The notes under the pieces: generated by a model
What the model saw: the letters and a program-made list of their open reading frames with translations, nothing else
Told to the model about the DNA's origin: nothing
Database searches by the model: none
Made by a program: the position numbers and the translations under genes
Assembly (NCBI RefSeq): GCF_003712195.1
Contig: NZ_RDSD01000001.1
Location: 496,001-560,000 of the forward strand
Reading direction: 5' to 3'
Source of the DNA: Proteiniphilum sp. X52
GTDB taxonomy: Bacteria; Bacteroidota; Bacteroidia; Bacteroidales; Dysgonomonadaceae
Length of the DNA stretch: 64,000 nt
In this document: piece after piece, positions 4,994 through 6,506 of the stretch
Layout: the number at the start of each line of letters is the position of its first letter
Position numbering within the stretch: the first letter of the stretch is position 1

Positions 4994-5026
4994 CATCGTT
5001 AAAACAAGGCTAAAAGTAAGAAAATA

Positions 5027-5116
5027 ATGAGAACGCCAGACATTCATTTTGTTTCTCTTCCATGTGCCAACAACCTCCATAAGGCTTCTCTTCCGTTAAG
5101 CCGAATGTGCTGTTGA
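5027..5116 (+). CDS. Putative leader peptide of metY, 29 residues ending Met-Cys-Cys
   Basis: A short frame begins with ATG 27 bases after the predicted transcript start and reads MRTPDIHFVSLPCANN, then 13 more residues ending SRMCC and TGA at 5114-5116. Three of 29 residues are Cys, two of them consecutive just before the stop, and the preceding codon is Met. The downstream gene makes homocysteine or cysteine from O-acetylhomoserine/sulfide. The last codons TGC-TGT-TGA lie in a perfect 7-bp hairpin (5106-5123). This arrangement is what a cysteine/methionine-sensing translational attenuator would look like. There is no clear Shine-Dalgarno, which is common in this phylum. No family recognised; the coding claim is inference from position and composition. 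Confidence 0.5.
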   Translation: MRTPDIHFVSLPCANNLHKASLPLSRMCC

Positions 5117-5159
5117 CAGCACAACTACCATTCCACATACCCTTTTTGCAATCGCAAAA
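5083..5159 (+). promoter_or_regulatory. Structured metY leader, possible attenuator
   Basis: Three short hairpins can be drawn: GGCTT/AAGCC (5083-5087 with 5098-5102), TGTGCTG-TTGA-CAGCACA (5106-5123, containing the leader stop codon) and TTTTGC-AATC-GCAAAA (5144-5159) followed by a T-rich stretch. The AATGTG at 5104-5109 could instead pair with CACATT near 5181, an alternative fold. I do not see a SAM-I, SAM-II or cobalamin riboswitch consensus. Confidence 0.45.
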
Positions 5160-5210
5160 CTTCAATATTTTTCTATTTACACATTGTATTTTATTTAAAA
5201 CATTACCCAT

Positions 5211-6506
5211 ATGAGCAACTATAAATTTGAAACCCTGCAGGTACACGCGGGACAAGAAGTGGATAAAACCACGCACTCACGTGCTTTGCCAATATATCAG
5301 ACATCATCCTATGTGTTTGAAGATGCGAAGGAGGGAGCCGATCTTTTCGGACTTCGCAAATTCGGGAATATCTATACCCGTTTGCAAAACCCGACGACCG
5401 ACGTTTTTGAAAAACGGGTGGCCGCTTTGGAGGGTGGTGTGACCGGATTGGCCACCTCTTCCGGACAATCGGCGCAATTCATCGCACTGAATAATATCTT
5501 ACAGGTGGGAGATAATTTTGTTTCGACTCCTTTCCTTTACGGTGGGACGTATAATCAATTCAAATCGCAGTTCAAGCGATTGGGTATTGAAGTTCGTTTT
5601 ACTCCCAATGAAAATCCTGAAGAGTTTGAAAAACTGATCGACAATAATACCAAAGCCATTTATCTGGAGTCGATCGGTAATCCGGAACTGAATATTCCCG
5701 ATTTCGATGCCATTGCCCAAGTCGCCCGTCGACACGATATTCCACTGATCGTGGACAACACCTTCGGTGCGGGCGGTTATCTTTTCCGACCGATTGAACA
5801 TGGTGCGGCAGTAGTGGTAGAGTCGGCTACCAAATGGATTGGCGGCCACGGCACCTCCCTTGGAGGTGTGATTGTGGATAGCGGCAAATTCAACTGGGGG
5901 AATGGTAAATTCCCTTCCTTCACCGAACCGTCTGAAAGTTATCATGGACTGGTTTTCTGGGATGTGTTTGGTACGAATGGCCCGTTTGGAAATATTGCTT
6001 TCAATATCCGCGCGCGGGTAGAAGGATTGCGCGATTGGGGAAATACCATCAGCCCGTTCAATTCTTTCCTCCTTGTGCAAGGATTGGAAACCCTGTCGCT
6101 CCGCTTGGAACGCCATGTGGAGAATACGCAGGCGCTGGCCGAATGGCTCGAGCAGCATCCGAAGGTAGAATATGTGAACTATCCGGGATTGAAGAGCAGC
6201 AAATATTATGCATTGGCGCAGAAATATTTCCCCAAAGGGGCGGGAGCCGTGCTTACATTCAAATTGAAAGGTGCGCCCGAGGATGCTGATAAACTGATCG
6301 ACAGTGTAGAGTTGTTGAGCCATCTGGCCAACGTGGGAGATGCTAAGTCGCTTATCATTCATCCGGCAGCCACCACGCACGAACAATTATCGCCTGAAGC
6401 CCAAAGGGCAAGCGGTGTGGAACCCGGATTGCTTCGTGTTTCCGTGGGTATTGAAAATATCGATGATATCAAAGCCGACCTGCAGCAGGCACTTGACAAA
6501 ATCTAA
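5211..6506 (+). CDS. metY: O-acetylhomoserine sulfhydrylase / cysteine synthase MetY
   Basis: 431 residues, the standard length for the MetY branch of the Cys/Met-metabolism PLP-enzyme family (about 425-435, longer than cystathionine gamma-synthase). The PLP lysine is about Lys208 in [15 protein letters not shown]; the start [13 protein letters not shown] and the segment YTRLQNPT are characteristic. It condenses O-acetylhomoserine with sulfide to give homocysteine, in the cytosol. The ATG at 5211 fits the family N terminus exactly. It is a single-gene transcript: a promoter and structured leader lie upstream and a strong terminator 126 bases downstream. Regulation by the leader peptide is inferred. 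Confidence 0.93.

Follow-up and report, generated by a model that had tools for sequence, protein, structure and literature searches.

A leader frame ending in tandem Cys codons ahead of metY

The metY gene of the window (the whole stretch of 64,000 nucleotides analysed, from a Bacteroidales genome) is preceded by a 29-codon frame that ends in Arg-Met-Cys-Cys, and this frame appears to be a cysteine-responsive attenuator in which the ribosome would stall on the final Cys codons, a reading to which we assign a probability of roughly 0.6. In the mechanism that we propose, scarcity of charged Cys-tRNA would stall the ribosome at the two terminal Cys codons (28 and 29), and the parked ribosome would cover the hairpin around the stop codon together with the start of the C-rich stretch behind it, which would block Rho termination and allow metY to be expressed. 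With Cys-tRNA plentiful, the ribosome would finish and depart, the C-rich stretch would lie bare and load Rho, and transcription would end before metY. We infer the translation of the frame, the sensing by stalling at Cys (perhaps also Met) codons, the loading of Rho and the masking that prevents termination; such a ribosome-occupancy switch on Rho fits the terminal position of the Cys codons, the lack of a terminator and a stretch that is C-rich and G-poor from the stop codon on.

The gene itself (5211–6506, + strand) encodes an O-acetylhomoserine/O-acetylserine sulfhydrylase (TIGR01326, E 8.8e-204), and downstream of it on the same strand (6838–13213) lie genes for SusC, SusD and a thioredoxin-like lipoprotein. 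The promoter reported in the preliminary description is found at 4963–4993 (+) as TTG-N20-TATCTTTG, with TTG at 4963–4965, a 20-nt spacer and TATCTTTG at 4986–4993; we take it to be of the Bacteroidota type, it is present in relatives too, and transcription is expected to start at about 5000. The frame, MRTPDIHFVSLPCANNLHKASLPLSRMCC-stop (5027–5116, +), opens with the ATG at 5027, is closed by the TGA at 5116, and stands in the list of open reading frames with the final codons ATG-TGC-TGT-TGA, as had been claimed for it. The proposed sensing codons, CGA-ATG-TGC-TGT-TGA (Arg-Met-Cys-Cys-stop; 5102–5116, +), form the ending that is conserved in relatives.

Recurrence of the ending ahead of metY in the family

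The metY set of the family comprised 90 upstream regions out of 101 match rows, the 11 excluded rows being partial genes, one gene at a contig edge and low-scoring homologues, and the frames counted were those with an ATG start, a length of 10–60 codons and an RMC, RMCC or RMCF ending. Such a frame is present in 8 of the 90 regions, compared with a mean of 0.007 regions and a maximum of 1 in 300 first-order-Markov resamplings, and the Cys ending that was to be sought by aligning metY upstream regions of relatives therefore does recur. Short frames as such are frequent (the 90 regions hold 153 with 10 codons or more), which is what can be said for a chance frame without function, but the excess over the resampled mean leaves that explanation with next to no credit, and by sequence criteria the leader frame is confirmed as more than chance. 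The eight carriers are the window, G014, G021, G007 and G013 of one genus, G527 and G523 of a second and G514 of a third; because G014 and G021 share one sequence here and the window, G014, G021 and G007 belong to one lineage, they amount to about four independent lines. The G523 frame ends in RMCF and that of G514 in RMC-stop with a single Cys, and one peptide of the set, PSM36_0730 of P. saccharofermentans, already carries a hypothetical-protein annotation.

The body of the peptide looks free and its ending looks fixed. When the window is set against G007, 13 of the 30 codons (stop counted) differ with an amino-acid change and 7 synonymously, with no indels, and the final four residues are unchanged despite this divergence of the body, for which the codon comparison gives no sign of coding selection. 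The frames of G013, G527, G514 and G523 likewise retain the ending, with bodies that cannot be aligned with that of the window by eye.

The ending is absent from 82 of the 90 regions, six of which carry the same promoter palindrome as the window. The preliminary description held that its proposal would fail if relatives lacked the frame or its Cys codons while retaining the surrounding sequence, a situation that was not encountered as worded; G011, G025 and G053, however, keep promoter and palindrome with a shortened leader and no RMC-type frame of any kind. As these three do without the frame, the leader module is dispensable. The same description had a Cys-ended leader peptide control a sulfur gene by translational attenuation, and of this the relatives support the leader peptide but not the occlusion of the metY start, for the leader stop lies 94 nt from metY in the window (94 to 199 nt across the family) and the hairpin stands at the end of that gap far from metY.

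The hairpin at the stop codon and the folding of the leader RNA

The last codons of the frame contribute to a perfect 7-bp hairpin (5106–5123, +; –9.0 kcal/mol), as described previously, with arms TGTGCTG (5106–5112) and CAGCACA (5117–5123) and the stop codon in the loop TTGA (5113–5116). Of the 7 distinct family metY leaders, 6 keep it, those of G527 and G514 with a single G-U pair each, and the exception is G523, in which RMC-Phe is retained and the hairpin lost (5 of 7 pairs broken). The covariation that had been suggested as a test of the stem did not emerge: no pair in the family metY leaders has compensating changes on both sides, a count that is uninformative as 500 of 500 column shuffles do as well. 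The 5' arm is also coding, so that it is fixed by the codons regardless; the non-coding 3' arm is kept in G013, G527 and G514, whose downstream leaders otherwise differ. In the metY leader of G089, which belongs to another family, a 5-bp version stands near the same place. As an independent, widespread motif the hairpin was rejected, since CGNATGTGYTGYTRACRGCACA occurs at 8 loci among the genome contigs, only 4 of them metY leaders (of Proteiniphilum or Bacteroidia), the other four having no metY behind them (Pararhizobium, Rhodanobacter, a Clostridia MAG and one further bacterium). The pattern ATGTGYTGYTGACAGCA has two matches outside the window's own genome in 395 genomes of the class, both within coding frames.

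The second hairpin with a T-rich tail that had been placed downstream reduces to a weak A/T stem, TTTTGC-AATC-GCAAAA (5144–5159), with the closest T-run beginning 8 nt past the stem, and a terminator scan of 4900–5260 finds no intrinsic terminator. A terminator-like site is absent from 5 of the 7 distinct family metY leaders, and the remaining two, G007 and G527, show a loose terminator-like tail at the hairpin around the stop codon. The fold of the whole leader is not unusual (z –1.23), since 26 of 200 shuffles are equally stable; for the 3' part of the leader (5085–5210) z is –2.18, a stability matched by 4 of 200 shuffles. Long-range pairing between the Cys-codon segment and the leader downstream of it gives no general signal among 22 leaders examined, and 9 or fewer of 200 shuffles do as well only in G007, G514 and G527, where the pairing is the local hairpin in every case, and in G032. 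When an alternative pairing of the antiterminator type was sought, the local hairpin alone stood out. A SAM riboswitch, named earlier as the usual expectation for a metY gene of the Bacteroidota, or another Rfam family was likewise set aside, the leader being without an Rfam match; the seven related loci give just sub-threshold matches to microRNA and snoRNA families of animal type.

Conservation of a hairpin around the stop codon, together with the lack of a terminator in the window, would also suit control of translation or decay, in which hairpin and ribosome occupancy alter mRNA stability or metY translation and not termination. The distances from the leader stop to metY are far for such coupling, however, and in predicted folds the hairpin region is not paired with the metY start, and we regard this account as quite unlikely.

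The C-rich stretch and the possible role of Rho

From the hairpin's 3' arm to the start of metY (5117–5210, +) runs a stretch that is C-rich and G-poor (C 26%, G 4%), contains the weak stem at 5144–5159, and is by its composition a candidate Rho loading region. The difference of C minus G behind the stop is 0.21 in the window, exceeding that of 82 of 82 control metY leaders lacking a Cys leader frame, and lies between 0.11 and 0.24 in the six further distinct leaders of the family; 4 of the 82 controls come up to the value of G527 and 3 to that of G523. Because the stretch behind the stop is C-rich and G-poor and has no terminator, metY is probably dependent on Rho in its attenuation. The Rho step would not be general, since the leaders of SusC type considered below are not C-rich (C minus G –0.03 to 0.10 in six measured) and neither are the metY leaders of G725 (C/G 0.10/0.04) and G089 (0.15/0.14). 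Six of the SusC-type leaders have a different conserved hairpin directly ahead of the gene, and this, with the different composition of the SusC-type leaders, suggests that the two groups may not share an output step.

The same ending ahead of uptake genes and in other families

Pattern searches place the ending ahead of further genes, with the designation of a match as a plausible leader being our judgement from the frame, its position and the gene behind it. The pattern CGAATGTGYTKYTRA has 27 matches in 101 genomes of the family, compared with 3 for the reversed pattern, and beyond metY these include five MRMCC-stop frames at 166 to 213 nt before receptors of TonB/SusC type, the remaining matches being chance-like. 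When the Arg codon is left open (ATGMGNATGTGYTGY), there are 38 matches versus 3 for controls, 10 of which are short leader frames, all ahead of uptake genes and all with CGA as the Arg codon. By comparison, CGA is found in 2 of the 28 other matches (three of the 28 left unviewed), both in longer frames and one of them, in G519, inside a coding gene, and it makes up 28 of 344 Arg codons (8%) in 15 genes of the window. Near matches in the window's own genome (up to 2 mismatches) number 21 versus 4 for controls. Searching proteins with the aligned peptides, an approach that needs shared 5-residue words, returned 3 of 16 candidates, all already in the set.

Outside the family, MRMCC-stop has 8 matches versus 2 for controls in 395 genomes of the class, with a plausible leader in G354 alone, a member of another family of the same class in which MRMRMCC stands before a SusC-SusD-M14 peptidase operon. 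With CGA fixed, ATGCGAATGTGYTGYT has 5 matches versus 1 for the control in 295 genomes of the order, 3 being plausible leaders and the other two looking like chance. The endings include MRMCCCC ahead of metY in G725 (L285), MRMCCCC-Asn-Glu ahead of a small secreted protein in G712, MRMCC ahead of SusC in G089 and MRMCCC in G494, G497 and G498. The cases other than metY total 13, with endings from MRMCC to MRMCCCC and some with short tails, the leaders of G499 and G511 being nearly identical. Eleven of the 13 precede a TonB-dependent receptor confirmed by Pfam, and the other two, in G502 and G712, precede a small secreted protein and then a receptor gene, of which the G712 locus holds the first domain only; the secreted protein of G502 has a sub-threshold match to a periplasmic-binding-protein domain, and that of G712 has none.

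A metY sample from across the order that was unselected for the motif has Cys-run endings in 2 of 78 regions outside the family, with L305 not framed in this sample and L317 covered for about 137 nt upstream only. The metY leader of G089 (L319) ends in VRMCCCKH with CGA as the Arg codon, and at 91 nt before metY in G532 (L328), from another family of Bacteroidales, a frame ends in MCMCCCGNHS, which is poly-Cys without CGA. Together with G725, Cys-run leaders precede metY in three cases from other Bacteroidales families. The ending FCCFIW at L304 was taken as chance. At L046 (G518), 74 nt before metY, a mini-frame MCCAEPFI has Met-Cys-Cys at its start and stands behind the same kind of palindrome. 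A further element, a 42-nt hairpin with GAACACTTCC, CCGACGGCAA and GGAAGTGCTC in that order, lies some 20 nt ahead of the start of SusC at L289, L133, L263, L259, L145 and L272; it is nearly identical across two families and the remaining leader is not, it has no Rfam match in the five loci tested, and it is absent from the window.

A role in sulfur supply fits the targets, among them metY and the operon behind the G511 leader, which encodes SusC, SusD, an OsmC-domain protein, an S9 peptidase and a PLP enzyme of Cys/Met metabolism, and it also fits the palindrome, which is present before cysK as well. For most other cases besides metY a sulfur hint in the operon is not evident.

Conservation of CGA and Met is unneeded by a pure Cys-codon sensor and counts against it. 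The CGA codon and the repeated Arg-Met may possibly reflect slow CGA decoding, Met sensing or arrest by the nascent chain. In the last case, nascent Arg-Met-Cys-Cys, perhaps with slow CGA, would pause the ribosome in response to cysteine, sulfide or S-adenosylmethionine and not to a lack of charged Cys-tRNA. Arg and Met indeed vary no more than the first Cys among the aligned peptides (some of which were found by fixing these residues), RMRM is repeated before the Cys run in several cases, and the constancy of CGA in the ten leader frames points in the same direction. Arrest peptides generally constrain more than about four residues, however, and about four is all that is constrained here, while the length of the Cys run varies from one to four residues, as suits codon sensing, so that an arrest peptide seems unlikely.

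Relation to known leader peptides

Work by Canestrari from 2020 is said to concern Cys-codon leader peptides of Actinobacteria. In the cys operons of that phylum, leader peptides carry runs of Cys codons close to the stop and lack a conserved terminator, and Rho has been suggested to act (Seliverstov 2005, PMC1262725). The window leader resembles these, on the features covered there, in having tandem Cys codons by the stop ahead of a Cys/sulfur gene and no intrinsic terminator, a resemblance of features that we do not claim as homology. It differs in its phylum, in its Arg-Met-Cys-Cys ending with CGA and in the hairpin that metY leaders have around the stop; it is also not leaderless, its 5' end being predicted some 27 nt upstream, and TonB/SusC uptake operons are among the targets. 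The uORFC-8-2 motif of Rhodobacterales cysS combines a uORF carrying tandem Cys codons and an intrinsic terminator (PMC8632094). Like the window leader it has two tandem Cys codons within a leader RNA stem, but its Cys pair is usually at codons 14–15 and its motif includes a U-tailed terminator, whereas the pair in the window is terminal and no such terminator was found. A GC stem with a U-run of the trp type likewise occurs 0 times in 4900–5260.

In the E. coli tna operon, the leader peptide TnaC halts its ribosome on free Trp by way of the nascent chain. By analogy, the metY leader would share with TnaC a short frame that ends directly before a putative Rho loading stretch, which a parked ribosome could mask, although TnaC responds to an excess of Trp and the metY leader would respond to scarcity. 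SAM riboswitches are likewise leader-RNA controls of methionine genes, and the metY leader is without a match to their Rfam families.

Among the literature matches listed, no Cys leader peptide of the Bacteroidota was found, and the listed matches containing the motif letters were unrelated. A transcriptome of B. thetaiotaomicron describes sORFs reminiscent of leader peptides, with no Cys case mentioned in the available part of that report (PMC7366714), and a Flavobacterium study gives clues of leader-peptide attenuation before amino-acid operons (PMC9723704). If the attenuator is real, the signature CGA-ATG-TGY-TGY would pick out, by sequence, sulfur-controlled transporters of otherwise unknown substrate, and codon stalling and the role of Rho in Bacteroidota would become directly testable.

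The promoter palindrome and a candidate regulator

At the –33 element of the metY promoter lies the palindrome ATACTATATTTGTGGTAT (4946–4963, +), with one mismatch to ATACC-N8-GGTAT, which is a candidate operator for a sulfur regulon in the Bacteroidales. ATACC-N8-GGTAT is present at the –33 element in 13 of the 90 family metY regions, compared with a resampled mean of 0.39 and a maximum of 3, and in 11 of the 13 its spacing to TAnnTTTG is 21–22 nt. All eight leader-bearing metY loci have the palindrome, seven being among the 13 and G013 having it further upstream, and since six of the 13 are without an RMC-type ending the palindrome is not tied to the frame. It also stands before 8 of the 13 leaders at genes other than metY (G056, G494, G497, G498, G502, G514, G032 and G089), with a variant in G017 and none seen at the leaders of G499, G511, G354 and G712, and in both G499 and G053 it is found before cysK. 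Besides 4946–4963 of the window, the palindrome loci include L228, L237, L259, L262, L263, L267, L272, L289 and L241.

The presence of the palindrome at metY loci that have no frame would be expected if the palindrome and its protein did all of the regulation and the frame were a by-product. That seems very improbable, as a functionless frame would not hold Arg-Met-Cys while its body drifts, nor recur before unrelated genes in other families. Under the attenuator model, the palindrome may instead provide a further layer of sulfur control, exerted by a protein. Tentatively, and with distinctly less confidence than the attenuator itself, both layers may belong to a sulfur gauge of the Bacteroidota's own, with the form (CGA-AUG)n-UGY-UGY, in which slow CGA, Met and the Cys run would jointly time the ribosome; it would act on sulfhydrylase synthesis and SusCD uptake operons and be paired with one palindromic operator, such that translation and a DNA-binding protein would read sulfur at the same promoters.

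A gene for a LuxR-type regulator with a GerE domain is found in the window at 3644–4288 on the minus strand, with one arfB-like gene between it and metY. Regulator genes that are similar by eye have the palindrome in front of them in G523, G017 and G053, and in G523 and G053 the palindrome near the regulator is shared with a divergent metY or cysK. The position of the palindrome ahead of these similar regulators suggests that the LuxR-type protein may bind it.
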